Positions 15-30,895 of a stretch of DNA of 64,000 nucleotides are shown piece by piece; positions within the stretch are counted from its first letter, which is position 1, and every line of letters begins with the position of its first letter. A model generated the notes under the pieces. The model worked only from the letters and a program-made list of their open reading frames with translations. It searched no databases and was not told the DNA's origin. The DNA is from Lunularia cruciata (taxonomy: Eukaryota > Streptophyta > Marchantiopsida > Lunulariales > Lunulariaceae): NCBI GenBank assembly GCA_948567375.1, contig OX419761.1, positions 14,546,243 through 14,610,242 of the forward strand. Reading direction: 5' to 3'. A program made the position numbers and the translations under genes.

Positions 15-1070
15 ATGTCCCTCGAATGTGCTCAGTTGAGGGAATTGCCCGCTTCGATCTTGGAGACGCAATCCCTTCGGAACTTGAGACTAAAAGGCTG
101 CTCAGCTCTCACAAACTGGCCTGTACAATCTGTTCCGAAGAAATTTCGGTCGATTGTCGACACTCATTTGTGTAATCTCGTAAATCTGAGACTAGAAGAG
201 TTGCCTTTGTTGACAGATCTGCCTGAATCTTTCGGGCTCTTGAAGTCTCTCCGGACACTGACTTTGACCAAATGCTCGGCAATGGAAAAACTGCCTGAGG
301 GTTTTGGAGGGTTGCAACAGTTGATGGAGCTCAGCATTAGTGACTGTGGTAGCTTGGAGCTTCTGTGCGACAGCCTCGGGAAACTTCGATCTCTTCGGAA
401 GCTGGAGGTTGAGCATTGTCCACAATTCTCTCGTCTTCCTGATTCGATTGGATGTCTCCAGTCGCTTGAATATTTGGTACTAGTAGGTGGAAAATTGAAG
501 AGCTTGCCCACGTCTACAGGGAAGCTTTCCAGGCTAACCACCTTGCAGCTAAGGGAATGCCACAGCATCGAAAGACTGCCTGAATCGATTGGGGAGCTCA
601 AAGCACTTGATGGTTTACATCTGAAGAGTAATAACAGTCTTGAAAGCCTTCCTGTGTCACTGAGTCAGCTTAATGCAATGGAAACGTTGGTAGTAACAGA
701 ATGCCACAGATGCAGCTTCTCAGAGCTGAAAGACCACGACGGGTTTGATTCCTTGAAGTATTTTGCAATAGACATGAGTGAAAGAGTAAATCTAGAAACC
801 CTACCTGGAATTGTAGGATGCCTCAAATCATTGAGTTTATTGTCCCTTGGTAATTGTGGCTCTATTCAGTTGAAGGGCTTGCCTGATCGATATCAGCTTG
901 AAGACCTGCGATCTTTAGATATACCCCGGAGTGAAAGCTTCCAAAGATTGCGTGTGGCTTTACAACAGTTACGTCTCGAGAAATTTAGCGACTTACAATT
1001 ACATTTTGATGGGGCATTCATCAACCTAGATTTAACTGGCGGTAATGCTCATCAGTTAATCCAGATGTAG
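15..1070 (+). CDS. Leucine-rich-repeat protein, C-terminal part (NLR/LRR disease-resistance style)
   Basis: The frame stays open from the window edge to a TAG ending at 1070, so the Met at 15 is probably internal and the gene starts upstream. The 351 residues are a run of plant-type LRRs of about 23-24 residues, with the recurring pattern LPxSxGxLxxLxxLxLxxC (for example LPESFGLLKSL, LPDSIGCLQSL, LPESIGELKAL). Such LRRs form the recognition/regulatory end of plant NLR proteins, but no NB-ARC, TIR or kinase domain lies in the window, so the full architecture is unknown. The last 60 residues leave the LRR pattern. The last 100 bp or so recur immediately downstream. Antisense frames at 164-601 and 192-425 are shadows. 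Being an LRR protein is near certain; a resistance role is inference from family style. Confidence 0.85.
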   Translation: MSLECAQLRELPASILETQSLRNLRLKGCSALTNWPVQSVPKKFRSIVDTHLCNLVNLRLEELPLLTDLPESFGLLKSLRTLTLTKCSAMEKLPEGFGGLQQLMELSISDCGSLELLCDSLGKLRSLRKLEVEHCPQFSRLPDSIGCLQSLEYLVLVGGKLKSLPTSTGKLSRLTTLQLRECHSIERLPESIGELKALDGLHLKSNNSLESLPVSLSQLNAMETLVVTECHRCSFSELKDHDGFDSLKYFAIDMSERVNLETLPGIVGCLKSLSLLSLGNCGSIQLKGLPDRYQLEDLRSLDIPRSESFQRLRVALQQLRLEKFSDLQLHFDGAFINLDLTGGNAHQLIQM

Positions 1071-1214
1071 GTTGCGAAATAAAAATGCACTTAAGTCTTG
1101 AGAAACATAGCGACTTACAGTTGCACTTTGATGGCGCATTCATCGACCTAGAGTTAGCTGGCGGTAATGCTCATCACTTAATCTCGACCTAGGTTGCAAA
1201 CTAAAACTGCACTT
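971..1214 (+). repeat. 122-bp tandem duplication of the LRR gene's 3' end
   Basis: Units 971-1092 and 1093-1214 align at a constant offset of 122 bp. Both encode a tail like SDLQLHFDGAFI(N/D)L(D/E)L followed by a stop and the shared 3' flank. The second unit lies beyond the stop of the first and is presumably 3' UTR. Confidence 0.85.
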
Positions 1215-1229
1215 GTGATGAAAAATGGC

Positions 1230-1745
1230 TTCCTTAGATGTACATGGTCTCAAGCTTCAAATCTCCATCTTAATCTGATTGATTGGGGCTTAGCTCCAGT
1301 TTAACTATTAGGTTTTATCCTTGTCAGTCAGAATGGGGCTTAGCCTATTCTACCTCTTGGGCTTTATCCCTTAACGGTTTGAAGGGGTCTTCCCATCCTT
1401 CTGGTTAGCCTGTGCGTGTCCCTTCCTTACCGGGGAAGAGGAAAATGTGATTGGTTTGGATGCGATATTCGATTCCTTAGTTTACTGAACAAGGTGAACC
1501 CTTCATTTGCGAAGCAAAGAATGGTTTGACTCTCTCACATATTGATCTGGGAACATTACAAAACCTTCTACAAACATTTGGTTCATTATAGAAGGTTGAT
1601 GCTTTGGTTCATGATCAACGAAGTGGTTGATTATGAAAACAGAGACAAAATGAAGTCATATTATATTGAAGTTCAAATCAATTCAAGGCCGTTCTTGAAT
1701 TGACCAACCGGATAACTCTTGGCAGCGGAATGCAAGCAGTCATTC
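1230..1745. other. No gene seen; degenerate repeat related to the short element at 35685
   Basis: I find no convincing coding sequence. About 1283-1400 contains two rounds of a GGGGCTTAGC...GGGCTTTATCC...GGGGTCTTC motif. The same motif makes up the 78-bp insertion at 35685-35762, so this is probably an older mobile-element remnant. The short frame at 1750-1989 is unsupported. Confidence 0.4.
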
Positions 1746-1945
1746 ACGAATGCAATCGTTGTCGATGACTGTTCGTTCATTCCAGGAAGTAACGACGGAG
1801 TCTGATTCTACTTCCCTACGAACGCAAATTGAAGAACCTGGAGATCACTCTGCACAAGAGACAGTGATTCTGAACGGAAACAGATCAACGTCAACTTCAA
1901 GAAGCGACTGTTTAGTTGAAGTTAGTCGAAGCATTGCTCTCTCAA

Positions 1946-2400
1946 TTATGACTTTAGCTTTTCATACCAAGCTCTCGAAGCTTGCTTAGGGCCATGTAAG
2001 GCCTTCTTAAGCAAACATATTTTCCATTTGCCTTCAACATACCCGTCTAGAATATCCATATCGATGGTCTCTATCAGATCTGCGTTAAAAAGTGCTATCT
2101 TGACATCATACCCGTCTAGAATATCCATATAGATGGTCTCTATCTGATCTGTGTTAAAAAATGCTAACTTGACATTTAATTGCTCCACTTCCCAATCTCT
2201 CTTTGGTGTAATTGTTAGAAGCATCCGGACAGATCCATACTTAGCCATAGATGCAAATTTTTTTGTATAGACTACGGTTGCTTTTTGGTTGAAGCTCTTC
2301 CGTACAAGTCTTGCTTTCTTCTTCAAGATCTCATTTTCTATTCCATATTTGACTTTAAATACCCATTTACAACCAATTGCTTTCTATCAGGTGATAAATA
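1946..2400 (-). pseudogene. Ty1/copia reverse-transcriptase fragment
   Basis: Read on the minus strand, the fragment shows the copia RT landmarks in order: a degenerate AIGCKWVFKVKY block near 2380-2340, then KKKARLVRKSF, SVRMLLTI, WEVEQLNVKLAFFN, IYMDILDGY, and LLKKALHGPKQASRAWYEKL. In copia RT these correspond to the canonical YKARLVAKGF, VR-LL, QLDVK-AFLNG and L-KSLYGLKQ-PR-W blocks. It is disrupted by a 69-bp internal duplication and has no YVDD catalytic block in the window, so it is a dead fragment. Confidence 0.8.
2041..2178 (-). repeat. 69-bp tandem duplication inside the copia RT fragment
   Basis: Units 2041-2109 and 2110-2178 differ at only a few bases. The 69-bp length keeps the frame, so the minus-strand protein reads the block V-K-(L/I)-A-x-F-N-(T/A)-D-x-I-E-T-I twice in succession. 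Confidence 0.85.
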
Positions 2401-2578
2401 GTCCAATACAAATACGTATGTACCGTTGGTCTATCAGGTGAGAAATCGTTGAATATATATGTACCACTGGTCTGAAAGCACTTCTCTTTTCTTCTAGTAC
2501 AATAAACTTCTATTGACTTCAATCTGATCTAAACATTGTTTCTTTTTAAGTTTCAATATCCTTATCTATCTCAGTGCA

Positions 2579-2815
2579 CTATGTTTCATCTAGTATCACT
2601 TTAGGCACATGTGAGTGTTGCTCCAAATGAAAGCTAAATATGCACATAGTCTTTATTATTCTCTTTGACCTTCTTTGACCTTCACTTAGGGTTTCCATGT
2701 CATCTATTGATCTCTCTGGAAATTCTACACCCAAAGTTACCTTGTAAGAGTCTTTGACTCTATTTCTAGCACGAGGATAAGTAACTACTATACGCTTCAA
2801 ATGCTTCCTATACAC
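2579..2815 (-). pseudogene. Ty1/copia integrase-RT linker fragment
   Basis: A 78-residue minus-strand frame with RRSKRIIK and FPERSIDD resembles the variable linker between integrase and RT in copia polyproteins (the RRS-R-R region). It lies upstream, in the minus-strand sense, of the RT fragment ending at 1946, so both probably come from one decayed element. The 2400-2579 stretch between them has no readable frame. Confidence 0.5.
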
Positions 2816-2936
2816 CTCAAGATCTATTTAGATGGTTAGCTAGGTTCATGTAAGGACTGTCCTTCTGATGGCTGGGTGGTTCACACCTTCCCATTCTTTT
2901 GTGTAAAATTATTTTATTTATAAATTGCAAATTTTA

Positions 2937-3430
2937 AAGGAAGTACTAGTCTATTCTTCCATTTTGATTGTAGATAATGTATTTTTTGCAGTTGTGACTC
3001 TTGAGCCAACAACACAAATGGCAAAGTTTGGGTCAGAGGAATATCTAAAGGAAGAATGAATGAATCCAACTGGGGACCAAAGGGTGCTAGAAGGCAAATG
3101 GATAGGAGGGGGGGGGGGGGGGGGGGGGGGGGTGCTTTTGCTTGAGGGTGACTTTTGGCCCAGTAGCACTTTGCTTGATAAGTGAAATGCTTGCCTCCTG
3201 CACTTCTTTTTGGACCTGAGACATGACAAGCACCGACTACCAATTTGAATGCATTTTCAAGGAAGACCGCTCTAAATCAAAAAGTGTGGTTCACATTCTG
3301 AGGAGGACTATTGTCATTTGGCCCAATGCACGTATTGGAATCTGGACCATTGGGAAGAGTGATGGTTTGCAGGTGCAAGCAGTACTCAGCATTGAATGAC
3401 TGACAAGGTTTGATGGGAAATTTAACATCC
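2937..3430 (+). mobile_element. 3' end of the gag-only LTR-type element (copy L0), containing the G run
   Basis: This stretch matches 8780-9300, 59880-60060 and 61625-62130: TACTAGTCTATTCTTC, then GGGTGCT(C/A)(A/G)AAGGCAAATGG, then GGCAAGCACC, TTTGAATGCA, and a purine-rich AGGAGGAC just before a (TG/TA)TTG...GCCCAATGCA block that looks like an LTR start. Predicted antisense proteins here (2914-3243) are artefacts of the G run, which reads as polyproline. Confidence 0.6.
3108..3132 (+). repeat. 25-nt uninterrupted G homopolymer
   Basis: Twenty-five consecutive G residues replace a stretch that in the sister copies at 8960 and 61775 is ordinary mixed sequence. The length may be an assembly or sequencing estimate. 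Confidence 0.9.
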
Positions 3431-3458
3431 AAATGAATTTATGGTATTTGCTTGCCAG

Positions 3459-5962
3459 GTTTTGCGCCGTTAACCGAAGGAAGTGTTTGTGCCGTTAACC
3501 GTGGGTGGTGGTATTCGTGATTTTACTGACTCCACTGGCAGGTATACTATGTTGTTCACTTCTTTCTCACATCATATTTTAGTCTGGTGAAAGTGTTATT
3601 AAGAATGTTACTAACCATCACCCGATGTTGATCATTACGATTTTATGGCTGATATTATTCGAAGTAAATCTCTGTGCTTCAGTTGTTACTGAAGTTTCGG
3701 AAGTTCTTCTCGTTTATTCTATGACTGAAACTTAATTTGATGTCTGTTTGGAAACTTGTCACGTGTGAAAGTCGTCCATTTAGAACTTGATGAGTAGAGC
3801 ATTACGTTCTTGTTTCAGGCGCTTGGATTAAGAATGCAGGTTTCCTGCATTCCTCATTACTAGGAACACAATGGAAATCCAGATCATGTTTTGACGTAGA
3901 CAATAAATTATTATGTGTTCTTCCATTTGTGCAGGTACTACTCAAGTCTGGAAGTAGCTTCGGAGTATTTCAGATCTGGGGCCGATAAGATTTCTATCGG
4001 AAGTGATGCTGTTTATGCGGCAGAGGAGTATCTGAAAACGCAGGTACTTGATGGAAGGGTTTGGTGTTTGATAACTCTCAAGTTCCTGAAAGTACCAACA
4101 CCCAGCGGATGGAAGTCTGGTTGCCCATGTTATTGTCGGTTCTTCATAACTTATTGTTGTAGTGTCTTTACTTCTTATACCTCATTCACTATGCCATGCC
4201 TCGTCCAGTGTTAAGTGGATATTGAACCATGTTCTAACAAACGGGTTCCGTATCCATACACTCCATATATTGTTGCAGGGAAATTGGGTAGCACTTAGAA
4301 GCATTCATCTTCAAGTTGTTTACCTTACCTTGTCGTCTCTGCAGGAAAAGACAGGGAAGACAAGTTTGGAGCAAATTTCTTACGTTTATGGAAATCAGGT
4401 GGACACGAGCCCTCTGCCATCTTTTAAGGACATCCCTTAGAGCCCCGCGAAAATGGTGGTAGACACCGGTGGCAGGGATGATTTTCGTATCAAGTGAATT
4501 AGTACTTTGACTCAATGTTGGGAACCTAAGATTCCGGTAGCTGTTTCTACCAGTGTCTCCGGTATTTCGTAAGCACTGGTATTTGTGAATATCAAAAGTA
4601 GTTCCAACAACTGGTCCAACTTAAGGGTAAAGAGATCAGTAGTGGAAATAACGCTACAGATGCTCATGAACAACGTCGATCTCATGTAGACCTGTGTGTG
4701 ATGGGCTGTCGACAGGCTGTAGTGGTCAGCATTGACCCTCGAAGAGTTTTCGTTAAAGATCCGAGTGAAGTACCTCACAAAACAGTGAAATGCAGTAAGC
4801 CAGGTGTGTTATCTAAATTCTATAGTTTCATCATCTTCATCTACATATCCTGGACAAGACCGAAGGCATGCCCTTGTTAATTCAAGCCTTTACTACATGA
4901 GTCTTGACTACTCTATTCTACAGGCCCAAACGGAGAGGAGTATGCCTGGTATCAATGCACGGTATTTGACCTGCTGCACTTTCAGCTCCTGTTGTTGTGG
5001 ATAGTGTTAGATCAGCGCTGTGACTTCTATCTTTGTTACTGCAGTTTTTTCAAGACCGTCTGTTCAAAGGGACGTTAATCCGTAAACGAGTTTTGCAGGA
5101 ACTTAATTTGCCTGATTTTGACGTAAATGTACGGAGTAGGGCTGAGAATTTGGATGAACTTTCTGACGTCTACTCTTTACCTGTCTTATAAGGTCAACGG
5201 TGGTCGGGAAGGCAGACCAATCGGCGCATATGAGTTGGCCAGAGCAGTGGAAGAGCTAGGCGCTGGTGAAATCCTCCTAAATTGCATCGACTGTGATGGT
5301 AAAGAGCTCTCTGACCCGATAGCGTATTGTGTTCGCTGATCGAGTATCGGTGTGCTTATCAACCACTTCGGAACTATCATAAAGTTTGTTCATTAGTTTG
5401 TAATTATAACTGACTGAGAGAGCTAAGAGACATGCACTCTCTCAGTCAATATGGACGTCCTAAACTGAACGAAGATTGCGTTGAAAAGCTGACGAAACAT
5501 CTTGTCATCTTAATTGATTGCCTGTGAGTTGCAGGTCAAGGGCAGGGATTCGACACGGATCTAGTTAAACTGGTGTCCGAAGCTGTCAATATCCCTGTCA
5601 TTGCTAGCAGTGGTGCAGGTGCAGTAGAACATTTTGCTGAAGTGTTCGACAAAACCCTAGCTTCTGCTGCTCTTGCTGCTGGAATCTTTCACCGGAAAGA
5701 AGTAATTGTCTCACCAACCTATATTTCATATTTCCCTGCATCTCACAATTGTGGCTGCAGATTACGTTTCTTCTGTACTCCTAAATAGAGCGTATCTCAA
5801 GAGTTGAGTGCACGTACTGTGTGAATCAGGATTGCAGTTGTATCATTAGCAACTTTTGGAGATTGATTTCTGGTTAATTTTGTACTTCCTTTGTTGCAGA
5901 TTTCTATAGCCTCAGTCAAAGAACACTTGGTTGAATCTGGAATGGAGATGAGACTAGTGTAG
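3459..5962 (+). pseudogene. HISN4: Imidazole glycerol phosphate synthase hisHF, C-terminal (HisF cyclase) half, 5'-truncated
   Basis: HISN4 is the plastid bifunctional enzyme that joins a glutamine amidotransferase to the HisF cyclase and makes imidazole glycerol phosphate and AICAR in histidine synthesis. Eight exons can be read: 3459-3541, 3935-4043, 4345-4398, 4716-4803, 4924-4961, 5193-5298, 5535-5701 and 5900-5962 (stop TAG). All junctions are GT/AG and keep phase. Visible HisF landmarks are [43 protein letters not shown] (its Asp is the second catalytic Asp), [44 protein letters not shown] (phosphate site), FHRKE and SVKEHL. Missing are the glutaminase domain and the HisF N-terminal half with the first catalytic Asp; 1230-3430 upstream is transposon debris. 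The first exon reads V-L-R-R then TAA (3471-3473) before rejoining the family sequence. From E-V-F-V onward the frame is clean. It is most likely a truncated copy; a transcript starting inside it cannot be excluded. Confidence 0.9.
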
Positions 5963-6984: not shown

Positions 6985-7440
6985 TTTGTACCACTTTCTG
7001 GCCAAAGAATGTCTAAAGACTTTGCCTAAAAAGAAGTGGGGAATGGCCATTTCCACTTTTGCCTTGCACAATCAATCTTGAATTCAATCTTTGCTGCTAT
7101 AGTTTTATAGTCTTGGAAGCCAAACCAACCTTTTCTTTTAATCCTTAGTCTGTTAGAGAATGTTGTTCATTCTGAAACCCATGAGGAAGCCTCCCCAAAT
7201 CCCCCCTTTGAAGCCCAACAATGAATGCTTGGATGGGTTACTATAGGAGAGAGTTGATTCTGAGCAAGCATATGGGATTCTTGCTTTGGGATTAGGATAC
7301 AACCAATTTAGAGATAATTCATGAGACAATGAGCCAAAGTAGAGAAGTAGTAAGGACTTGATAGGGAAACCCATGGGCTGGACAAAGGATAATTGGAGGA
7401 ATGTTCATGGTTTGGATGTAGGACCAACCCTAGCAAAAAA
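6985..7440 (+). mobile_element. LTR/leader-like repeat, copy L1
   Basis: It aligns with 9300-9770 and 60060-60560: CCAAAGAATG-C-AAAGACTTTGC, AAGTGGGGAAT, a poly-T-rich stretch, GCCCAACAATGAATGCTTGG, AGGAGAGAGTTGATTCTGAGCAAGCATATGGGATT, then ACCCATGGGCTGGA. In copy L2 a TATA-like CTTATAAAAC lies at the equivalent place, so this looks like an LTR promoter and leader. The 5' part present in L2 is missing here, so copy L1 is truncated against the HISN4 flank. Confidence 0.6.
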
Positions 7441-7850
7441 AATAGACACCAAGGTCTATGATTGGGAGGTGACCCAAGAGATCAAAGACACCTTTGGGGA
7501 ACCTTGCAACCATAACAATTGTTGGCTATAAGGACACAACTCAACGAGCAATTGTAGAAGTGGTTATGAAGTTGTTTCATCATAAATAAAAAACTTACTT
7601 AACAAATACCCAAGCTATCTTCTTTCACAAGATGTACAAAGGTGAGCCTATAGATTGGGCTTGCACGTTCTACTTACAGTACCAAACCCTTCACCAAGAC
7701 TTCTTGGATGAGAGAGGAGTCACTTACCTAGCCCCGTTTGCAATCCATTTCTACATGGGTCTTAATTTGTTAAACAAGAAGAAGCGCATGAGATTTTTGA
7801 GCCATTATCATGCTGCATATTACTTTGCTTCCCAGCCCGAGTGATGTGTA
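7441..7850 (+). pseudogene. Gag-like protein of the dispersed family, copy g1
   Basis: The readable part starts near 7560 and is open from the Met at 7632 to 7844. It shows the family signature: IFF-KMYKGEPIDWACTFY, then QTLHQDFLDERG, then PFAIHFYMGLNLLNKK, then LSHYHAAYYFASQ. Upstream frames carry stops. No domain family could be named with certainty; position after an LTR-like leader and before a Lys/Glu-rich tail suggests a retroelement Gag. At least seven other copies of the signature occur in the window. Confidence 0.5.
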
Positions 7851-8780
7851 GTCTACCACCAAACTCCCAAATAGTTGTGATCTTGCAAGAGAAGGAAGAA
7901 GGATTGAGCTAAACCACTGCTAGTTGATTTTTGGAGGGAGCTCACTTTATCATTCTTTTGGTGGAGGTGGTTTGTAGTTGATTGAACTCTTGCTACCATA
8001 GTACTAGCACAAGTGTCCAAAGATCATGGATTATACCACCTTGGTGCAAAGCATACACAAGGAAATTTATACAAGGAAGGCCCAAGAGAGTATGCACTAG
8101 GAGAAAGTGACCCGGAGTCAAGATAGCTACAAGGAAGAAGTAAAGAAGGTGAACTCCTTGATACAAGAAGAGACAAAGCAAAGCAAAAGTCTTATCTTGC
8201 CTCCACTCTCCAAGGTCAAGAGAAGGAATTGGGTAGAGTACAACCTGACTTTTAAGAATGGAGAAGAAGAAAGAAGAACTCCAGCAGGTGGAAGAAGTCC
8301 ATACATAATTCATAGAAATGCTCTAGGAAGTAGCCAAAGGGAGAGCTACAAATTGCAAGATTCATGAAGGTGGTTTCAAGCTCATAAGCTGAAAGGGAAA
8401 ACTTACAAGGAAGAATAGACCAGCTTGCTCTCCGGCTTCAAGGACATGTGGATACAAAATTCAACAAAGCAAACACTCATACTTGTTGAAGATTGTTGAT
8501 TACAAGGAGCAGACTAAAGAAGTTCTTTGACAACTCAAGGGCAAAGTATGTTCTTCCCAATAGAGTGTGGAGCCAAAGACAACCAAAAAAAAAAAAGGAA
8601 CCATAAGATTGGATCAATGTACATTTTTTTTTTATCTTAGTTACTTGCAAGAACTCCCATCCTATCCTCTTGGATGTGGAAGTTCTTTGTACATTTTTAA
8701 TTTAGTAATTAGACCAAAGGCTGTGTGTGGTGCACACCCTTTTTTTGTTATCTAATTTCTTTTTTATTTCAATTTTTCTG
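7851..8780 (+). other. Lys/Glu-rich degenerate tail of element 1, no intact gene
   Basis: Short frames (for example 8107-8367) are rich in K, E, Q and S and suggest a former coiled coil. 8400-8560 aligns with 12100-12290 (DQLAL-R... then a KFNK-like block), and 8620-8740 aligns with 12340-12470 (TTGCAAGAACTCC...GACCAAAGGCT). No protease, integrase or RT motif is present on either strand. Confidence 0.5.
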
Positions 8781-9180
8781 GTGAGGAATTACTAGTCTAT
8801 TCTTCAAATAAGATTGGAAAATCTATAGATAAGTGCATTCTTTGAGTTGGGACTCCAAATCTAGCAACCTGAATGATAGAGTCTGAGTCAGAGGAACACC
8901 TAGAGGAAGGATGCACAAAATTGACTTGGGACAAAAGGGTGCTCAAAGGCAAATGGTTCCCCAAGGGGAATACTTTGGCCAAAAGGTATCTGTATGGATT
9001 TTCATTTAGCCCGGTAGCACTTTGCTTGACAATTGAAACTCAAAAAAACGAGTTTACCTTGTTGCATTTCTTTTTAGACCCAACACATGGCAAGCACCAT
9101 ACAAAAATTTGAATGCACCACTAACAAATTCAAGGATGACCATTCCAAATCAAGAAAGGTGTTTGCATTCTAGGGAGGAC
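8780..9180 (+). mobile_element. 3' pre-LTR block of element 1
   Basis: A full-length copy of the block at 2937-3308 and 61625-62000. It ends in the purine-rich TAGGGAGGAC at 9171-9180, a plausible polypurine tract directly before the TGTTGG that would begin an LTR at 9181. The frame 8873-9112 reads SESEEHLEEGCTKLTWDKRV and is conserved at 61700 only in fragments. Confidence 0.5.
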
Positions 9181-9770
9181 TGTTGGAATTTGGCACAATG
9201 CATGCATCAGAACTTGGATTATTGGGGGAGAATGATGGTTCATATGTGAAAGTAATACTTGACACTGAAGCTGTGACAAAGAATAAGGACTAACTAACCA
9301 CTTTTTGACCAAAGAATGACTAAAGACTTTGCTTATAAAACAAAGTGGGGAATGACCATTTCCTCTTTTCAAATTGCAAGAGATCAATAAACCACAAATG
9401 ATCCCAAATTCAAGAATTTTCTATGACAGTTTTTTATTCTTTTAGGCCAAATTAGCTTTTGCTTCCATTCCATAGTTCTTGAGAGATGTTGTTTGTCCAA
9501 AAACCAATGAGAAAGGACTCCAAAGGCATCCTCTAAAGCCAAACAATGAATACTTGGGTGGTCTATTGTAGGAGAGAGATTATTTGTAGCAAGCATATGG
9601 GATTCTTGCTTTGAGATTGGGATGCAACCAACTTTAAAATCATCCACAAGACCATGAGCCGGAGGATGAGAAGTAGTGGGGACCTAAGTGAGGAAACCCC
9701 ATGGGTTGGACATAATGAAATTGGAGAAATGTACTTGGTCCCAATCTAGGTGTAATGTTTTGAAGATAGG
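9181..9770 (+). mobile_element. LTR-like repeat, copy L2 (most complete)
   Basis: It begins TGTTGGAATTTGGC after a purine tract, contains a TATA-like CTTATAAAAC at about 9332, and then follows the same leader as L1 and L3 up to CCCATGGGTTGGA. It can be the 3' LTR of element 1 and the 5' LTR of the next element. No clean TG...CA boundary or target-site duplication could be fixed by eye. Confidence 0.5.
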
Positions 9771-10190
9771 AGAAAATCCAAAGAGAAATATAAAAGAAGA
9801 AACAGAAGAGAAACACAAGACTTCCATCCCTCAATACTCTGATGCCCCAAAGGAGCACCTTGGCTTTACTATGTAGTAAGAGGATCCACTCAAACAAAGC
9901 TACACCCTTGGATCAAATACATTGATTGGTGACATGTCAACAAGCTCCACCCTTAGATTAGCCATATGGATTGGTGACATGTTGATCTTTGTTTTATTTG
10001 GTTGGTCAAACATGTTTTATAAGAGGGAATCTTTGAGGAATTGTTGTATAGGAAGTTCAAAACAACATAGATGAGGTACGATTAGAGAGCTCTTGATGAG
10101 AAAAATAATAGAGAAGAGTGGGAGAGGGAGAGGGAGGGGGAGGATCAACACCTTTTTTCCTTGGAGGGGAGAAATTTTTTTCATTTCTTG
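9771..10190. other. Unassigned interval with a purine-rich low-complexity run
   Basis: No gene is visible. It contains two imperfect copies of a GATTGGTGACATGTTGA/CAAC block (near 9925 and 9970) and a GGGAGA/GGGAGG simple repeat at about 10117-10143. Confidence 0.4.
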
Positions 10191-10830
10191 AGGTCTAATT
10201 CATCAATTTAGATTCCCAAAATTGGCTCTGAAGTTTTTAGGGTTTTTTTGCCATTTGCCCTATTAGTGGAAGTACTCTTTGTGAAAAATCTATCTAACTA
10301 CTTAGATCATTATATATAACATCCCTTAAGATTTTACCAAGCTAATTTCTATCTCTGGATAATATGTCTAGCTAATGGTATTACAACATGCCAAACAAGA
10401 GCAATGACCATTGGTACCAAGTTCTATGATCGAGAGATGACCCAAGAGATCAAAGATGCCTTTGTAAAATCTCACAACCACAAAAATGGTTGGTGGGTTC
10501 TCAATTATAAGGACCCATCTCAATGAGCAATAGTAGAAGTGATTATGAAATTTTTTTTTCACAAGCAGACATTAACCAATACCCAAGTCTTCATCTTTCA
10601 TAAGATGTATAAAGAGGAGCATATAAATTGGACTTGCATGTTCTATTTATAGGCCCAAACTCTTCATAACAATTTCTTAGATTAGAGGGGAGCCAGTTTG
10701 CAATCCATTTCTACATGGGGTTTGACTTGTTGAACAAGGAAGGGTGCAAAGATTTTTGAGTCATTATCATGCCAAAGATTACTTTGCTAAGGGGAAGTTG
10801 ATGATTAAGAAATATTGGGGCACAAATGCA
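10191..10830 (+). pseudogene. Gag-like protein, copy g2, with its leader
   Basis: It aligns over its whole length with 62690-63235: CAAAATTGGCTCT(G/A)AAGTTTT, ATATATAACATCCCTTAAG, AATGGTATTACAA, then the gag-like block around 10560-10740 (HKMYKEEHINWTCMFY, then a broken L-EERG and FAIHFYMGFDLLNKE). It contains several stops and frameshifts, so it is dead. Confidence 0.5.
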
Positions 10831-12480
10831 AATTTGCCAAAATTAGCAAGTTTGTGCTAGTGGAGGAGGAGGTGGTCAACACCAAGCCAAAGAAGCACCA
10901 CTAGCCTAAATTTCCACACCCATCAAGAAGCAAGCAAAGAAGAACCCTACAATCATTGATGTGACTTCCAAAACCAAAGAGGAGGAAGAAGTTGGTTTGG
11001 AGGAAGAAACCCAAGAAGAAGAAGGGTCCTTCATCTTGAAGTCAAAGGAGGAGGACCATGAAGAAGACCAATTTGAGGATGCCCAGTTTGCCCCCAATTC
11101 CTAGTATCTAAAGATCAAGAAGAAGTACAATAGAAGGGTGATGAAGCCCAAGAGGATTTGATTGGCCTAGAGCTAAAACTCCCAAGCTGCACTCCTTGAT
11201 CGCCATCTTTTGGAGAAAAAGAATACCCACTTGGAAGAACTTTGGCCCAAAGTTCCAAAGGTTGTTCAACCCCAAGACAAGGACAAGGCCAAACCTAAAG
11301 AAGACATAGGTGTCAAGGCAAAGGAGACTCTAGTGTGGATTACCAAAGAAGTGGAAGTTCCAGTCTTGTAGGAGAAAGAAGAAGGATCAAGCCAAATGAC
11401 TACTAGTTGAGTTTTGGAGGGGGCCAAATTTGTTATTCATTTGGTGTGGTCAATTTTGCAATTGAGAGAACTCTTACTATCCTAATACCAGCATGAGCGT
11501 CCAGAGATTATAGACCATACCACCTTGGTATGGAGGATGCACAAGGAGATTTATACATGAAGGCCAAGAGAGTAAGCTCTAGGAGGAAGTGACCCAAAGC
11601 CAAGATTGCTACAAGGAGGAAGCAAAGAAGGTAAACTCCTTGATGCAAGATGTCTTTGCTTCTGCATGAATGAACCAAGAGAAGGAATTGGGCCAAATAC
11701 AATTGTAGTTGGGGAATCTGCAAATGGAGAAGAAGGAGAAGGAGCTACAAAGATCAACTTGAGGAGGTGTAGAGCTTGCACTAGGAGCTAAATGACACCA
11801 AATTTTGTAATGCAACTTTGAATTTGTAGATGTTCAAGTACTGAAAGGAAGTAGTAGCATAGTTGGAGGCCTAAGCAAAGGAATTGTCTTTGGCCATGGA
11901 GAAATAGGCCAAACAAGAGAACTTGCATAAAAAATTGAATGAAGAATTTCAAGCAATGTGCTTGTAGATTGAAGAAAAGAAGAATGAGGAACTCCAACAG
12001 GTGGAGGAAGTCTAGGCACAATTCATGGAGATGCTCCATGAAGAAGCCAAAGGGAAAGCAACTAATTGCTAAGTCCATGAATTGTGGTTCTAGGCTCAGA
12101 AGCTGAAGGAGAGAAGTACAAGGAAGAACCATTGGACCAGCTTGCTCTCCGACGTTGGGGATGTACGGAGAGGAAATTCAACAAAGTAAAGAACTCCTAT
12201 CTGTTGAAGATTGTTGACTGCAAGGAGTGGACTGAAGAAGTCCTTTGACAACTCAAGGATGAAGGATTTTCTTCCCAATATTGCAGAGCTGAAGGAACCA
12301 GAGATAACATAAGGAATCATAGTGTTAGCCTAGCTTACATTCTTACATCTTTTCTAACAATTGTACATAGGACTTAGCAATTATTGCAAGAACTCCTAAC
12401 CCATCCTCTAATATGTGAATATTTTTGGTACATTGTAAGTAGGAACAAGACCAAAGGCTTTGGCTTGGTACACTTTCATG
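10831..12480 (+). other. Lys/Glu-rich tail of element 2, degenerate
   Basis: Remnant plus-strand frames are strongly K/E/P-rich (for example around 10900-11100, 11230-11350 and 11850-12010), as expected for a disordered or coiled-coil protein. 11470-11800 repeats the arrangement at 7990-8300 (TACCACCTTGG-...-CACAAGGA, GAGAGTA-GC-CTAGGAG-AAGTGACCC). The many minus-strand frames here are shadows of this composition. No pol motif was found. Confidence 0.45.
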
Positions 12481-13250
12481 AAAAATGACATTTGGTCAAG
12501 TTCTAGTCGAAGAACCCTTTGGTGCAATAGCTTAGGCGGACATTCATTACTTGCAACATATACTTAGGGGAAGAACTGACAACTTCCATGTCACTTGACA
12601 AAGTCTCATTTAGCAGTTAAGAGTAAGATAAGATAGGAATTAAGACCATAATTGGTGGCAACAAAGTAGTTAGATTTGGCAAGGACACTTTTTGGGCAAA
12701 TTAGAGTAGCACTAGGAAAATATACATAAGGCTTTGGCCCAATAATGAACAAGTCCACTTTTCCATACAAGTCTGTATCAATATGATGAATTTGATCAGT
12801 CCTAAGTGCCATCTATAAAATAGAATCAAAACTTAGGGACATTCATTGCAAGTTGTGACCCACCCGCCCACTTCTTTCTAAAGTACACATCTAAACTTGT
12901 GAAGCTTAACTAAGAAGAGTGCAGAAATAGTGAAGTAAGCAAGAAGATGGGAGGTTTATGATTGGCTTTCAAATAAGAAATCTTTGGCAAGGAACCATTT
13001 GTCCTAAGAGATCTTTGTTTTGAAAAGAGACCTTTGCCTTTGGATGACCTTTGGCTAGGAAAGCCATTTGACCTAAAAGTTCCTTTCAGCCTAAAATTTC
13101 ATGAGTAAATGTGGTACCAACAGATCAAGAACTACAATTGATGACCATTCAATTTTACTGACCACTCACATGTATGAGCAATGATTGCTCACCAAAGTGC
13201 ATGCTAATTGAAAGCTCATAACAGTTGAATTGTCACCTTAAATATCCATA
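12481..13250. other. No gene seen
   Basis: Mixed AT-rich sequence between two gag-like elements. It has several TTTGGC/CCTTTGG-type short repeats but no coding frame I can defend. Confidence 0.4.
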
Positions 13251-14800
13251 TGGGGCTTGGATCCTTTTCAATTTATTCAGAGTTAACCAAAGCAAGACTT
13301 GCTGGGGTTTCTTCAACCTTGGTAGGAAGTTTTATCACTTAGAAATTCAAAGTAGGAGAGTTTGTGCATGTGCAAGGAAGATTGAGAAGAGAGAAGTGAA
13401 GTAAGAATGATGAAAGGATAGAAAGGAAGAAAGGAGCTATCCCTAAAGCACCAAGGAGGATGAGAAGTGCACCTGAATTCATAACTCAGGCTCTAGGATT
13501 GGTTAAGGGAGGATTGCATGGTAGGTAAGAATTGGTTTGTAATACGAAGTTAGAGATCTTGCAGTGAAATTGGGAATTGAGTGATCATGTGATGCTACAT
13601 GAAACTAGAGATAATTGCAATTCAAGGATAGAGAACCTAAGAGGGAATATCTTTGCTTGGACCAAAGAGTATTGGTAGAGGTGTCAAGGCTTAGAAATTC
13701 TCTCCCAAACAACATTACTTAGGATAGCACTTGGACTCACCTTGACTTGACAATTGAAGCCAAGTCCAAGGCAACATTCAAAGATAGTAAAAGCAACAAT
13801 GGTTGGTCAAAGAGGCTACAATGAGGATATTGGTAGAGTCAGTCATGATGTTATTCAAGTTTAAACAAATAACTTACTTGAACAAAAGTCAACCAATTAT
13901 CTTTGAGTATTTATACCAAGGAAAACCTATCAATTGGGCAGCAATGTTTTGGGCAAGGACAGAGAAAGCTTGCCAGAACAGTGAAAAAGGAAGGAGGAGT
14001 GACTTTGGTGTCCTCCTTGGTTATCCATTTCCAATGGAGATGGATTTGTTGACCCCAAAGGGGGAGAAGAAGTACTTTGACCACTTCTTCCCCATAGGAC
14101 AGTTTTACATGCTCAAAGAAAGATCACTAATGGTGGGAAAAATATACTGAAGTAGATGTGGAATTTACATGCACAAGGAAATACATGGAGGTGAAAGAAG
14201 CATATAATACGCAGGGCTTTGAGAAGCAGAGGCAACAAGAGACCACCGTAGAGCCAGCAATCAAGAAGAAGAAGAAGAAGTGAGTCAATAAAATCAGCTT
14301 GAGGAAAAGGTGAAGGGCGAAGAGGAAGAAATCTACACACTCAAGGGAGAAGTAGAAAAGTTGAAAGTGGCTCTCATTGCAACAGAAGTTTGTCATCAAG
14401 AGGAACTGCAAGTGACCAAAGTGCATTGTGAAGAAGCTCACAAAAAGTATCAAGTAGAAAGAAGAGGAATGTGAGAAAGATATTGCAGCCATTCAAGAAG
14501 AGATTGTGACAGAGATGGAGGAGAGTTGGACCCAATTCAACAAAGAGAAGACTGCAATTTTAGCAAGGTTGGAGATGGCACGGGACTATCTTGAAGAAAT
14601 TGAAGGCTTGGGACTCAAGATCCCAAGTGCATACTCTCATGGCAACACTGTACATGGACAAGAGCTTGCAAAAGCTAACCAATAAGCTAATTGAACACAC
14701 CTAAGAGAAGTTTGAGTAGTCCACAAAGATGACATTGAAGGAGACCATAGAGTATTGGGATTGCGTAGAATTTCTAGCTAAGATTCATAAGGGCAAAGGT
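13251..14800 (+). pseudogene. Gag-like protein of subfamily B, copy g3, with leader and coiled-coil tail
   Basis: The leader at 13251-13800 aligns with 54170-54780 and, for its first 150 bp, with 36140-36290. The clearest frame is 13803-14150 (115 residues): ITYLNKSQPIIFEYLYQGKP, then NWAAMFWA, then KKYFDHFFPIGQFY. After a stop, other frames continue as Lys/Glu-rich helix, best at 14460-14690 (EECEKDIAAIQEEIVTEMEE). The block -IFFEYLYQGK--(N/E)WAAMF-A- is shared with 54850-54900, which makes this the same domain as g1/g2 in diverged form. No catalytic domain follows. Confidence 0.5.
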
Positions 14801-15690
14801 AGTTCCTCATAGTAGATTTTAGGAGAAAGAGATTCTGGCTGAAAGGGAGTAGGTGGATACATATTAAGTATAGAATGCACATTTTTTCCTAATAATTATC
14901 TTCAGCTTGCAAAGTTCTTCATCTTTGAAGACCTTTGTCTTGACTTCTTTATGAATACACAACAATTTTGAAACCAAAGATTTTATAATTATGCACAAAG
15001 TAAACAACAGTAGTAGTTGTGATTGGTGGTGGTTTGCTTAATTTGCACTTCTTAATTTGCTTAGGATAAGATCAGGAGGTAGGATTAGTGATAAATGGAG
15101 TGGGTGTAATTAGAATATTTACAACACTCTTAGCCATTATCATCTTTCTTAGCCATTATCATCTTCATCAAAGAGTTAGGAAACTATACATATGGGTTCT
15201 GTCCAAGAAAAACTATGTCTACTTCATAATCCAAGTATTTAGTGTAAAAATATTTGTGAGTTCTTTGTGTTGGATAGCTTTTGTTTACATATTTGGTTAT
15301 ACATTTGGTCAAGTAGAGGTAATAAATCTTGCAGTAGGAGTGTGTGTTTGAGTACATGCTTAGGAAATTTGCACTGAATCAAGGAAGTTACTTATGACAT
15401 TCAACGGCAAATGAGTGCTTGAGTACCTACTCAAGAAATTTGCACATGATCACAGAAATTTACCCTTGACATTTTGATTGAGTGAGTCAATGTGAGGAAG
15501 GGTTTTGGGAACAATAGAGCACTGAGAGTATTGGAGAATAGAAAGCCAAGTAGACAATCCATTTTGGATTTTGTGAGATTGATTGTTTTGGAAAGAGGTG
15601 CATGTAGTCATTAATGGCATCAAGGTGAAAGAACCTTTGGCCTGAAAAAAAACTCTTGTGATGAATTATACCTTTGGAGAGGGACTAGCT
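14801..15690. repeat. Non-coding tail of subfamily B element with an imperfect direct repeat
   Basis: No gene is supported; the 15088-15351 frame looks like chance in AT-rich DNA. About 15338-15403 and 15411-15473 are imperfect copies of GAGTAC-T-CTTAGGAAATTTGCAC...TTGACATT. Confidence 0.5.
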
Positions 15691-15693
15691 GCC

Positions 15694-15710
15694 ACGGTAA
15701 AAGATACCGT
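15694..15710. repeat. Small hairpin next to the large one
   Basis: ACGGTA (15694-15699), a 5-nt loop, then TACCGT (15705-15710). It abuts the 83-bp hairpin that starts at 15710. Confidence 0.7.
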
Positions 15711-15792
15711 TTAGGAGGAAGAGGCCTTATGCATGAAGTGAACCACCACTATCAGGTGGTTCACTTCATGCGGAAGGCCTCTTCCTCCTAAA
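15710..15792. repeat. 83-bp near-perfect inverted repeat (38-bp arms, 7-nt loop)
   Basis: The left arm 15710-15747 and the right arm 15755-15792 are reverse complements except for one 2-nt mismatch (AT against the GG opposite, about 15729-15730). The arms run from TTTAGGAGGAAGAGGCCTT to GAAGTGAACCACC. It could be a tiny foldback element or a hairpin-RNA locus; the sequence alone does not say which. Confidence 0.9.
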
Positions 15793-15844
15793 GAGCATCT
15801 ATTGTGATTAGAACTTTGTGAGAGTGGTTGTTAATTTCTCTTTT

Positions 15845-16335
15845 TTTAGGGTGGGTGTCTCTATCCTCTTTTGGGAGTGTTTTCTACCCCAAGAGGTTAA
15901 ACCACCACAAATAGACTATTTGTGACATTGTGACACTTTATTCTCATTTCTGGTCATTTCTAACTCATATCCTCCTAGGAACAATGTCTTCTTACCTATT
16001 ATATTACTAGTATGTTGATATTGGGTTGTCATACAAGCTAGGCCCTTTGGTTGTGTGCCTTTGGGGAAGGGTAGTACATGCTATCAAGTTTGGTGGATTT
16101 GGTGCAAAGTGCACCATCACCTTCAGAGTTACTTTGGTTACAACTAGTTTTGAGAGTGATTTAGGAGATTTTTTCATTTCTATACAGTGGCATAGTTGGT
16201 TCCTCTACTCTCATACAAGGAGTGGTTTTTTCCCAAGAGCTTAAACAAACAAACAAACAAACTGTAACTTGTGACACTTTCCCTTAACTTCTAGCCATTT
16301 TTGACTCAAATCTTCATAGGATCAACTGGTAGTAC
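15845..16335. repeat. Imperfect direct duplication with (AAAC)5
   Basis: About 15845-16005 and 16190-16335 share the order CTC-T...GGAGTG-TTTT-(T)-CCCAAGAG-TTAAAC, TGTGACA(C)TT, CATTTCT(A/G)A-TC and CCT-(A)TAGGA-CAA. The second copy carries the simple repeat (AAAC)5 at 16243-16262. No gene is present; the frame 16026-16244 is unsupported. Confidence 0.5.
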
Positions 16336-17239
16336 ATCAACAGTGGGTTGATAAGGTTGCATCTGAAGAGAATCCTGTAACTTGGGAAGATAGGCTGATC
16401 ACATTGATCATCTAATTCCAACAACTCTCCATTGATTTTACCCTAACTTATCAAATACAAAATCCATATTTCTCATAACCCTTTGGTCTTAGGATTGAAA
16501 AGAAGTTATCATTCCAAACACTCTTCATAACCTTAGATTTGGCAGTAATTCAAATATTTCACAATTATAAGTTACTTTCACAATTACCCACCCTTTGCGG
16601 AAAACTGTAACTTTTGGTTAAAAGTGAATGCAATAAAGATACGAATTTTAAGACCTTAATAAAAAATTAAAAACATAGATTTAATAGTAAGAAAATAAGT
16701 ATGAGTTTGAAGTACTTACTTTTATGAAGAAACAAACTTGTAAAATTATCTCCCGTGAAGAGAGTTCACTTGTCCCTAATCGCATTATACTTGGAAATTC
16801 ACCCTATTGAAGTCATGTGAGATTGTTTACTTGCTCATTGTACACCTCATGCGAATGCATATTGTCCCTTCCTATCCATTCCCTCTTCAAAATCAATATC
16901 AACGTGGGACATTTTCTACGAAACTGGTCAACTTTGATTAACTTTTGATTTCTCTTTATTCTGATTTAGGTGGCCTCGTGATATACATCAATACCCTATT
17001 CTACTAAAATTTTCATAAAATTGAGTGAAATAACTGATTCAAATATTTTTAATCATTGAAAAAATTACAATTTATATATGAAATTATTTATAATAGTTAA
17101 ATTTTGATTTGTATGAGTGGACGATGACAATCAAATGGAGACAACAACTCAATATGAATCCATTCAATTTCAATGTAATTGTTTAAAAAAAAATTAGGCT
17201 ACAAGTATACTTTAATTTGAGTGATATAATGATAATGTT

Positions 17240-19351: not shown

Positions 19352-22300
19352 TGACACCCTTGCCAGAGTGTACAATTGTGACTGAACTCTAAATTATCTG
19401 TTTTGCATTTTAGTGTCTGCTTTAATTTATCCAACACCATTCCAAAATTATATTTTCCATTTCTATCCCTGTCATATTCAGTTTCCGTCACAAGTTCACA
19501 CAGAAATGACAGGTGTGTAGTATATGGTCCCCCATGCAACTTGATCATGAGATTCTTTTAGTTTACTTAACATGTAGGTTAATTGCTTGGAGCAAGGCCA
19601 TGGGACACAACAGAAGGAATGGAGCCCATGATCCTTCAACAAATAAAGTAGAGGAGAAGGATTGACGGGGATTCAATGACTGCAAATTGCAGAAGCATTG
19701 ACATATTCAAAGAGCATGTGATATTAATAAATCTCATTCTTGTGGACTTCCATTAATTCTTCTCTCTTGCACGATTATAAACAAGGGCTTTCATCAGTCT
19801 GTTTCTTTTCTTATATTTAGTGGTGAGTCTATTTTGATGTTTGTATTCACTTGATATCATATAAACTTGCAGTATCATTGGGTTTGTCTTGGACTCAATG
19901 AAATTGAATCATACACACTTCTTAGGTATTGCTGAAAATATTCTTAAAGACAAAATCCTGTGTAATATCATTCTAAGATGAATTTTTATGGAGTCCGACG
20001 GTGAATACGAGACTATCTTCTTGACCTTAGATCAGTTATTGCATGAAACATATTTCTTGATTAAGCTTTTCTACAGTATCGGCCTCAGGTTAAGCTCATC
20101 TGAGGTTTCAACTCATCTGAGTCTTGTTGTTTTCAAGTGTCCTTTTTACTTCTGAAGGTGCTTAGTTTCCCTGTTTGTGCATAGTTCTACTTAATGAGTT
20201 AGTGGATTATATTTAATAGATCTCTAATAAAGATTTTCTTACCAAAGATCTCAAAAGTTAAGCCAGTTTATTTGGAATGTGGCACAAAAGGGTGATTAGG
20301 AATACTAGATATTGATATTCACTTCTATAGATACGATCAGGTGTCAATCAATCAGCCGGACTGTCTTGCAATCATGTACTTAAGCTCTAGAAATACCAAA
20401 CATTGTGGGAGATATTAAACAAACTGGACTAGGGTGCATTGATGATGATGATTATGGGTATGGACTGCATTACAGAGCAACTAAAACAGTGCAGGCAACA
20501 TTTTTAGCCAACTTGAGTTGATAGTACAAGCTGGGATAGAAAATTGGCACTCAAGATCTGCATGGGATTCAAATTAAGGTATGTATCAGATCTGAACAAA
20601 CCCCAAAGTTGTGGTTCTCAAGTTGCTGAGGGCCAAGCAGTAATTGAAAAATCAGACGCTTTCAATGATCAGAAAATGCAATACCTTCAGGTAAGCTTAG
20701 AAACAATATACATATTGGAGAAATTGACTAGAAATGTGAGTAGATTAGGAAATTTAACAAATGCTCTACCTATTACGAGTAAATTAGAAAATTTGACAAA
20801 TGCTCTACCTATTACGGTAGCTAGATTAATGAGTACAATAGAGGTTGAACTAGCACAGATTCCTTTCCAGATGTGATTTAGATGATGTCTGCCTCAAAGT
20901 CTCCATAGCTGCTACTTTGATCCCAGAAGAAAATGCAAATGTGTAATAGCTTATATCCTCATATTTTAACCAATGACAGATTAACAACAGCAAGTAATTC
21001 TATTGGTCTAGTTCTCCTTTCAATATCACATGTAATAAAGTTCTTCTATGGCATAATCAAAACCATCAGTAAGGGTATGCAAATGTGCACATTTATGACC
21101 TTGATTTAAATCACTAGCCTCATTTGGAAGCACAATTTAGGTGACTGGCTCAGTGCAAGTACATGTGGTAGTGGGCTCCACTCATGACCAAGCTGAACTG
21201 GAATTAAATCACTAACCTCATTTAGAAGCACAATTGAGGTGATTGGCTCAATGTAAGTACATGTGAGAGTGGTAGTGGGCTTCACTCATGACCAAGCTTT
21301 GCTTAAAGAATCTCATGGCCAAGGTAAGGATATTCAAATTTGTACATTTATGACCTTGGATAAAATCACTAACCTCATTTAGAAGCAAAATTCAAGTGAC
21401 TGGCTCAGTGCAAAAGCCCATGACCAAGCTGTGCTAAAAGAATCTCATGACCAAGGTAAGGATATTCAAAGGTGTAAATTTATGACCTTGATTAAATCAC
21501 TAATCTCATTTAGAAGCACAATTGAGGTGACTGGCTCAGTGCATGTACATGTGGTAGTGTGCTCCACTCATGACCAAGCTGTGCTAAAAGAATCTCATGA
21601 CAAAGGTAGAAATATTCAGATGTGTACATTTATGACTTGGACTAAAATCACTTACCTCATTCAAAAGCATAATTCAGGTGACTGGCTCAGTGCAAGTACA
21701 TGTGGTAGTTAGCTCCACTCAGGACCAAGGTAAGGATATTCAAATTTGTACATCTATGACCTGGATTAAAATCACTAACCTCATTTAGAAGCATAATTCA
21801 GGTCATGGCCTCAGTGCAAGTACATGTGGTAGTGGGCTCCACTCATGAACATGCTGTGCTAAAAGAATCTCATGACCAAGGTAAGGATATTCAACTGTGT
21901 ACATTTATGACCTGGATTAAAATCAGTAATCTCATTTAGAAGCACACTTCAGTTGACTGGCTCAGTGCAAGTTCATGTGGTAGTGGGCTCCACTCATGAC
22001 CAAGCTGTGCCAAAAGAATCTCATGACAAAGGTGAGGATATTCAAATGTGTACATTTATGAACTGGAATTAAATCACTAACCTCATTTAGAAGCAAAATT
22101 GAGGTGACTGGCTCAGTGCAAGTACATATGAGAGTGGGCTCCACTCATGACCAAGCTGTGCTAAAAGAATCTCATGACCAAGGTAAGGATATTCAAAGGT
22201 GTAAATTTATGACCTTGATTAAATCACTAATCTCATTTAGAAGCACAATTGAGGTGACTGGCTCAGTGCAGGTACATGTGGTAGTGGGCTCCACTCATGA

Positions 22301-23205
22301 CCAAGCTGTGCTAAGAGAATCTCATGACCAAGGTAGAAATATTCAGATGTGTACATTTATGATGGACTAAAATCACTTACCTCATTCAGAAGCATAATTC
22401 AGGTAACTAGCTCAGTGCAAGTACATGTGGTAGTTAGCTCCACTCAGGACCAAGGTAAGGATATTCAAATTTGTACATCTATGACCTGGATTAAAATCAC
22501 TAACCTCATTTAGAAGCACAATTCAGGTCATGGCCTCAGTGCAAGTACATGTGGTAGTGGGCTCCACTCATGAACATGCTGTGCTAAAAGAATCTCATGA
22601 CCAAGGTAAGGATATTCAAATGTGTACATTTATGACCTGGATTAAAATCACTAATGTCATTTAGAAGCTTCAGTTGACTGGCTCAGTGCAAGTTCATGTG
22701 GTAGTGGGCTCCACTCATGACCAAGCTGTGCCAAAAGAATCTCATGAAAAAGGTAAGGATATTCAAATGTGTACATTTATGAACTGGAATTAAATCACTA
22801 ACCTCATTTAGAAGCACAATTGGGGTGACTGGCTCAGTGCAAGTACATATGAGAGTGGGCTCCACTCATGACCAAGCTGTGTTAAGAATCTCATGACCAA
22901 GGTAAGGATATTCAAATGTGTACATTTATGACCTGGACTAAAATCACTGACCTCATTTAGAATCATAATTCAGGTGACTGGCTCAGTGCAGGTACATGTG
23001 GTAGTGGGCTCCACTCATGACCAAGCCATGCTAAAGAAATCTCATGACCAAGCTGCACATGGGTCCATATAGTGTGCACCAGTCGTTCTGCAGGGACTTG
23101 TGAGGGGAAACTGAATATTGATATGGAGAGAAACAGATAATGCAATTTTTGAAATTCAATCACTTTCATATACTGTGGCACTCAAACACTCTGGCAGGGG
23201 TGTCA
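19352..23205. mobile_element. TIR-bounded element in R1 (3.85 kb) containing a satellite-like array
   Basis: TGACACCCTTGCCAGAGTGT at 19352-19371 is matched in inverted orientation at 23186-23205 with one mismatch in 20. The equivalent words bound the shorter R2 copy (43366-43385 and 46063-46082). There is no transposase; the only frame of note, 20544-20876, is not recognised. It could be a non-autonomous DNA transposon whose right half is a tandem array. No target-site duplication was recognised, so this call is tentative. Confidence 0.45.
21070..23060 (+). repeat. 151-bp tandem array, about 14 monomers, with a 727-bp higher-order period
   Basis: The consensus monomer contains GTGACTGGCTCAGTGCAAGT, ACATGTGGTAGTGGGCTCCA, CTCATGACCAAGCTGTGCTA, AAGGATATTCAAATGTGTAC and CTAACCTCATTTAGAAGCAC. 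Monomer starts are near 21140, 21240, 21397, 21530, 21679, 21804, 21955, 22107, 22255, 22404, 22531, 22677, 22826 and 22977. Variants such as CAAAGGTGTAAATTTATGACC recur at 21465 and 22192, giving a five-monomer (about 727 bp) higher-order repeat. Open frames across the array are by-products. Confidence 0.9.
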
Positions 23206-23227
23206 AAACTGCAAGAGTGTAACCAAT

Positions 23228-30790: not shown

Positions 30791-30895
30791 CAACCAACAA
30801 AAAATTGGCATAACCGCCGATCAGGAGGCTGCCCGAATAACTCCCAGCGTGGCAGACAACCGTCCAATAATAACAATAGTGCACAATGTGTTCTC

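Follow-up and report, generated by a model that had tools for sequence, protein, structure and literature searches.

Blocks in a Lunularia cruciata contig as probable remains of protein-coding long terminal repeats of a Ty3/gypsy lineage

Introduction

Long terminal repeats (LTRs) are normally regarded as regulatory DNA, and solo LTRs as dead remains. The mouse mammary tumor virus (MMTV), an animal retrovirus, has its sag open reading frame (ORF) in U3, and its protein is unrelated to the LTR protein that we describe here from Lunularia cruciata. As an accessory gene in U3 of the LTR, sag is one of the closest described systems (PMC9412291). Athila 14 ORF(+) is reported to carry PF20167 in an accessory ORF located 3' of pol, with a relation to Athila ORF1 (PF03078) (PMC11728184). 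The grass elements Retrosat2, RIRE3 and RIRE8 are described with LTRs over 3 kb (over 3.2 kb in Retrosat2) and an extra ORF0 (PMC3485330), and TR-GAG elements with a gag ORF flanked by two LTRs (PMC9784723). Here we analyze a window of 64,000 nucleotides of the L. cruciata genome (C11:14546243-14610242; contig OX419761.1 of assembly GCA_948567375.1, forward strand) that contains eight copies of a protein-coding block. An original prediction, made from the letters of this window, had read them as non-autonomous, gag-only units similar to large retrotransposon derivatives (LARDs), with the block between two LTRs. We find instead, with a probability of about 0.9, that what survives in these blocks are pieces of LTRs that coded for a protein, from a Ty3/gypsy lineage in the Lunularia genome.

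Like Athila/Tat elements, the Lunularia family appears to combine a plant Ty3/gypsy gag-pol with an accessory ORF 3' of integrase and a weak match to PF20167 (Transposase_32). Unlike them, it has this ORF inside the LTR and so also 5' of gag, and the PF20167 match lies under the cut-off. With MMTV it shares an accessory protein that is encoded in the LTR and hence in both LTRs (PMC9412291). An ORF inside the LTR that has been kept by selection makes the family sag-like in organization, with no claim of protein kinship; the Lunularia LTR differs in its conserved TATA upstream of the ORF and in an ORF length of about 750-830 codons. Retrosat2, RIRE3 and RIRE8 also have long LTRs and an extra ORF, but ORF0 is described upstream of gag-pol and listed apart from the LTR (PMC3485330). 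TR-GAG elements and LARDs are similarly multi-copy, with a gag-like ORF and no pol in the copy itself, whereas the Lunularia ORF lies within the LTR and its family has gag-pol. Judged by these comparisons, a protein-coding LTR in a plant Ty3/gypsy element would be the new point. A literature search of partial coverage turned up no plant LTR with an internal accessory ORF, which is not proof of absence.

Results

Full-length type-C elements

Across the 566-Mb genome, the PF20167 profile gave four weak matches at E<=1 among seven candidates (E values of 0.04-0.32, all under the cut-off), and all four fell on related blocks (loci L034-L037). Two of these four are surrounded by full Ty3/gypsy elements, termed type C. 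The element on C2 (below, simply C2) is ordered as 5' LTR, primer-site-like stretch TGGCACCGCTGCCGGGGA, gag, reverse transcriptase (RT), RNase H, integrase, polypurine tract (PPT) GAGGGAGGGAGTA and 3' LTR. Its Pfam matches follow the gypsy order (PF03732, E 4.5e-11; RVT_1, 3.6e-19; RT_RNaseH, 3e-28; rve, 2.7e-13), and a protease and zinc knuckles were read by eye. The 5' LTR measures ~3.81 kb (L043 reverse strand 1267-5080) and the 3' LTR extends to L041 reverse 1195; the pair is 93.6% identical over 2573 compared columns and 96.8% over 1195. This repeat starts directly after the PPT and stops just before the primer-site-like stretch, which lies 7 nt behind the 5' LTR and whose tRNA we take to be that for Asp. 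GTGGA stands at both outer sides, a perfect 5-bp target duplication around an element that spans ~21.5 kb with a nested insert and ~13.7 kb without it. Type-C LTRs have ends TGTGGTGCCC..GTTGTCACA, of TG..CA type, the 3' copy terminating in CATA. A second type-C element, on C6, agrees with it in purine tract and 3' LTR. Family C is a Ty3/gypsy LTR retrotransposon, with gag, RT, RNase H and integrase, two LTRs, a primer-binding site, a PPT and a target-site duplication.

Both LTRs of C2 contain the block and its Lys/Glu-rich tail. Genomic full-length copies with pol, LTRs and target duplications, which the original prediction had proposed to look for, thus exist for type C, and these close relatives carry an ordinary gag-pol, the very observation that it had named as contradicting a gag-only unit. 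Nor is the block the structural gag for which it had been taken: a separate Retrotrans_gag domain, the PF03732 match above, lies downstream of the LTR.

As to the identity of the LTR protein, 4 of 10 block fragments matched PF20167, with 13.7-21.8 bits (E 1.9e-4 to 0.058) against a cut-off of 45 bits. The protein weakly resembles PF20167; the Pfam comparison that had been proposed for the block yielded this resemblance, under the Pfam cut-off. A PDB profile search returned only two chance-level matches (E 1.6 and 1.8). AlphaFold2, run without an alignment on the 119-aa block of the window, gave a mean pLDDT (predicted local distance difference test) of 43, and the model was not used.

A younger LTR element is nested in the gag of C2 (L042). 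Its LTR is at least 669 bp long, the pair is 99.7% identical, and relatives 86-95% identical occur in several loci (L040, L078, L012, L021, L027).

Coding signal, selection and TATA of the LTR ORF

The block is part of one long ORF inside the LTR, about 750-830 codons in length. Column variability in type C (11 rows) picked out a single phase in 17/17 windows over columns 451-3000, with p<0.05 in 15 of the 17, and none of nine flank windows reached p<0.05. Over columns 751-3000 of type A (19 rows), 0 of 2000 shuffles were as strong, and the flanks gave p values of 0.93 and 0.43. Between C elements, the ratio of nonsynonymous to synonymous substitution (dN/dS) was 0.16, 0.18 and 0.17 in three unsaturated pairs (663-680 codons; dS about 0.9-1.3), with off-frame values of 0.88-1.15. 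Three more distant pairs had saturated dS; two of them gave dN/dS values of 0.26 and 0.12, and the third could not be computed. When the two LTRs of a single element were compared, the frame signal was absent (0.45 and 0.56, versus 0.40-0.62 and 0.46-0.82 off frame). Since the signal is present between elements and lacking within LTR pairs, selection acted on the lineage and not on inserted copies. The LTR ORF has been under purifying selection in the past.

A conserved TATA lies 120-165 bp upstream of the coding-phase start. TATAAA is found at LTR position 379 in 8/8 aligned type-C rows and, in type A, at position 593 (exact in 9/16, with at most one mismatch in 15/16), the sole position passing that test. 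Past the ORF, no exact TATAAA is common to the C copies (one-mismatch forms at 3049, 3196 and 3248), and in type A no such site passes the test. We regard it as possible, at a little short of even odds, that the LTR has turned into a gene comprising a promoter, an ORF of about 750-830 codons and a trailer; genomic RNA would then begin with the ORF, and solo LTRs would be stand-alone transcription units that may supply the protein in trans. In a different plan, which we hold to be doubtful, genomic RNA starts near the LTR 3' end, so that U3 contains the ORF and the ORF has its own promoter, active in the 3' LTR or in solo LTRs, as for MMTV sag in U3 (PMC9412291). In two of the three C-LTR comparisons covering the whole ORF, conservation is highest (82-90%) in the final ~400 bp, as in a regulatory region, and a conserved TATA ahead of the ORF fits a gene promoter within U3; the lack of a shared or passing TATAAA behind the ORF speaks against this plan, although TATA-less promoters are possible.

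Spacing of block and gag across the genome

We scored 133 of 21311 first-look block candidates and 150 of 6417 first-look gag candidates. Among these scored matches, 17 block-gag pairs lay on the same strand at most 30 kb apart, and five on opposite strands. The same-strand spacings cluster near -3.7 kb (7/17, -3716 to -3561 bp, one being C2 itself) and near +6.2 kb (7/17, +6143 to +6254), with the last three at +12.6 to +14.0 kb. If both LTRs carry the ORF, two such sharp peaks are expected. Open frames of up to 738 aa in stop-free scored block matches show that rather intact block copies exist.

An ordinary Athila-type accessory ORF between integrase and the LTR, its upstream copy coming from neighboring or nested elements, would accord with the PF20167 reported from an Athila 3' accessory ORF (PMC11728184) and with the many nested copies in this genome, but the C2 repeat is bounded by PPT and primer-site-like stretch with a 5-bp duplication around the whole, and further elements show the two spacing peaks as well, making this reading very improbable.

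Type-A units across the genome

Type A was sampled at twenty 9.5-kb loci, the best genome copies of window positions 7500-8000, and at five loci with 3'-end copies. The unit is ~4.06 kb long (type B, 3.18 kb) and near-complete in six copies (L016, L019, L022, L024, L031, L033), with identities of ~69-75% in the comparisons made with L016. The unit starts with TGTGGTGCCCACC and ends with GGGTTGTTACA or close variants, and 36 of the best 40 3'-end copies terminate within 7 bases of the query end. First-look candidates numbered 1067 for the 3' end and 406 for the block. No type-A copy bears its own terminal repeats; direct repeats of >100 bp, found in 9/20 loci, lie away from the unit ends except in L017, where the repeat is the end of another such unit. 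Such a unit resembles an LTR, not an element with LTRs.

The 45 type-A 3'-end rows represent 44 distinct places (L071 is the L017 place; L062 and L063 belong to a duplicated region). A mutually similar leader follows four of the 44 (L032, L064, L070, L076), with pair scores of up to 98 and a maximum of 35 in 1000 shuffles. One of these leaders has a primer-site match of 15/18, above the maximum of 12 in 900 shuffles, and behind it comes a stretch related to C-type gag (46% over 35 aa, one internal stop, E 1.9e-7). The other 40 ends are 3' or solo LTRs, presumably mostly solo, since none of the type-A 5' ends read was seen to be preceded by a purine tract. The termini, sharp 3' ends, leaders and gag-related stretch suggest that type-A units are LTRs of the type-C kind.

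Non-autonomous gag-only elements of LARD or TR-GAG type would have the block between two LTRs and draw pol from another element. The window blocks have no adjoining pol and each A unit has a single ORF region, as this would require. Near-complete A units, however, have TG..CA-type ends without terminal repeats of their own, their loci place direct repeats off the unit ends (L017 apart), and in type C the block stands in both LTRs around gag-pol, with the two-peak spacing. An ORF, or nothing, between two LTRs without pol was not the plan found here, and we consider such elements a highly improbable source of the blocks.

Two further classes had been entertained. A non-LTR retroelement, prompted by the excess of 3' ends over blocks, and a DNA transposon, prompted by short imperfect terminal similarity, were both dropped in view of the termini, the target duplication of unit B (below) and the LTR pairs. 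A segment common to L012, L015, L017, L019, L027 and L032 was rejected as a type-A internal region: it occurs in either orientation beside A units and, by eye, has an integrase-like frame in the L019 orientation. It is not the young L042 element.

Two side observations concern the type-A loci. Downstream DNA is alike in L049 and L053, which may reflect a regional duplication or insertion into one kind of target repeat. In L009, L011, L013, L018, L023, L025 and L028 (mainly C1:16.36-16.79 Mb), the type-A LTR is cut at an identical point and preceded by common upstream DNA; this group is a block of segmental copies near frames resembling leucine-rich-repeat (LRR) kinases.

Blocks of the window

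Five block queries, namely one ORF of the window and four fragments from other parts of the genome, were compared with the window by tblastn (E<=0.01). They recovered all eight predicted copies (8/8), at 7.5, 10.5, 13.8, 54.7, 55.7, 59.2, 60.6 and 63.0 kb, the lowest-scoring being that at 59.2 kb. The predicted leader-like direct repeats are also present, for example 6990-7411 / 9297-9739 (73%) and 6990-7830 / 60070-60929 (80%). The eight blocks are parts of old LTRs and not gag-only elements. They are arranged as follows.

6985-8728, + strand: A1, type-A LTR remnant with leader, block (7518-7838) and part of the coiled-coil tail, ending at the A2 start (direct repeats, type-A comparison, tblastn)
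8729-16350, + strand: A2, type-A LTR starting at ~8729 with 5' end TGTGGTGCACACC; decayed 3' end near 16350 (type-A comparison)
9334-9339, + strand: A2 copy of TATAAA, in the alignment column of the TATA-like site of other type-A LTR copies (alignment)
10482-10907, + strand: A2 block, decayed coding sequence (tblastn)
12849-12853, + strand: CAAGT, left target-site duplicate of B
12854-16033, + strand: B, complete 3180-bp LTR unit, TGTGACCCACC...GGGTTGTCATA, within A2 (uninterrupted A copies lack the insert)
13791-14150, + strand: B block, open over 119 aa and closed by a stop (ORF list, tblastn)
16034-16038, + strand: CAAGC, right target-site duplicate of B, 4/5 letters equal to CAAGT
54149-55235, + strand: second type-B stretch, block at 54726-55081 (direct repeats, tblastn)
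55738-56094, + strand: diverged block of the same protein family (tblastn)
59178-59522, + strand: most diverged block, found by one query, E 2e-6 (tblastn)
59865-61621, + strand: A3, type-A LTR fragment, block at 60630-61057 (type-A comparison, tblastn)
61619-63201, + strand: A4, type-A LTR fragment split into 61619-62129 and 62893-63201, with its block at 62992-63202 (tblastn)

Two pieces of foreign sequence interrupt A2: an insert of ~640 bp at about 9752-10390, and B at 12854-16033. The A copies L029 and L030 run across the insertion site of B without interruption, and A2 sequence continues from 16034; B was inserted as a whole unit with a 5-bp duplication (CAAGT/CAAGC). In the window, no internal region lies inside B or adjoins it. 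The final ~200 bp of B resemble the 3' ends of 10/10 compared A copies (68-76%). With B between target duplicates inside A2, positions 6985-14800 therefore consist of A1, A2 and B, nested.

The absence of polymerase beside the window copies held both in a Pfam scan and in a search of the window with family-C pieces. Nine window ORFs or fragments matched no retro-enzyme family in Pfam at E<=1, and the gag, RT, RNase H and integrase pieces of family C had no window match at E<=0.01. The only Pfam matches of the nine, all below cut-off and from two coil-rich frames, were to Peptidase_M3_N, DDE_Tnp_ISL3 and RHS. A reported purine tract before TGTT failed confirmation as such. The LTR-retrotransposon origin, multi-copy state and own protein of the original prediction stand, and its gag-only unit was wrong: the block sits within the LTR.

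The ~640-bp insert in A2 has ends TGTAATG..GGTATTACA and may be a solo LTR from a different family. Further copies of its 3' part occur at 62.7-62.9 kb of the window (62708-62893) and at the 5' edge of L020.

Neighboring features

The window contains a duplicated segment (21000-29500 and 45000-53100) whose unit repeats are about 90-98% alike. The first copy has repeat arrays at 21-23 kb and, read by eye, phytocyanin-like frames at 24.6-28.2 kb and a P450-like frame at 28.9-29.6 kb; in the second copy the corresponding features lie at 45-46, 46.8-50.6 and 52.5-53.1 kb. A copia element (29566-35062) lies within the first P450-like copy; the second (52787-53073, 53163-53462) lacks it, and the copia insertion is therefore later than the duplication. 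The window has no tRNA genes. A BELL-homeodomain-like frame was seen by eye in one genome locus outside the window.

Discussion

We propose an LTR of 3.2-4.1 kb with a TATA near its 5' end, one long ORF and then ~0.8-1.1 kb of non-coding DNA. The ORF would encode a domain similar to Transposase_32 and the Athila accessory protein, followed by a Lys/Glu-rich, coiled-coil-like tail, and gag-pol lies between the LTRs. With every insertion, reverse transcription would place the accessory gene in both LTRs; where these recombine to a solo LTR, a promoter-plus-gene unit would be left, readable as a gag-only element. RNA would start at the conserved TATA, the accessory ORF heading the genomic RNA. 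The protein made from the LTR may be a helper, in packaging, nuclear entry or silencing escape, and not a capsid.

Several observations weigh against this reading. Single type-A ORF windows give a weaker coding signal (p<0.05 in 9/15; phase 2 in 14/15, with one in another phase), and two non-coding windows at the extreme 3' end of type A reach p<0.05 in other phases. The PF20167 matches are all under the cut-off, and 6/10 fragments, including the window ORF, have none. None of the type-A copies was read as a whole element, with pol and the two LTRs; three of the four type-A leaders score 10-11 for the primer site, not significant alone; and type-A target duplications are weak (L031 4/5, L016 3/5, others not readable). 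In the element on C6, the 5' LTR is truncated and joined in frame to gag (one copy). The in-frame fusion of LTR block and gag domain at L037 1820-1900 has an open frame of 361 aa and one TAA in the PF20167 match. Splicing was considered as the origin of the L037 fusion, but a clean GT..AG is missing at the join; the fusion is most simply a deletion.

If the LTR has indeed turned into a gene, genomic RNA would also end with the accessory ORF, provided that the poly(A) site lies behind it, and thousands of solo LTRs would keep the helper gene of the element in reserve throughout the genome. Translation of gag-pol behind a long upstream ORF also calls for an explanation. In repeat annotation, LTRs of this sort may be taken wrongly for LARDs, host genes or gag-only elements. 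The spread of the long-unexplained Athila-type accessory protein may become traceable apart from gag-pol. With a gene once under purifying selection in the LTR of an abundant plant family, solo LTRs become possible gene donors.

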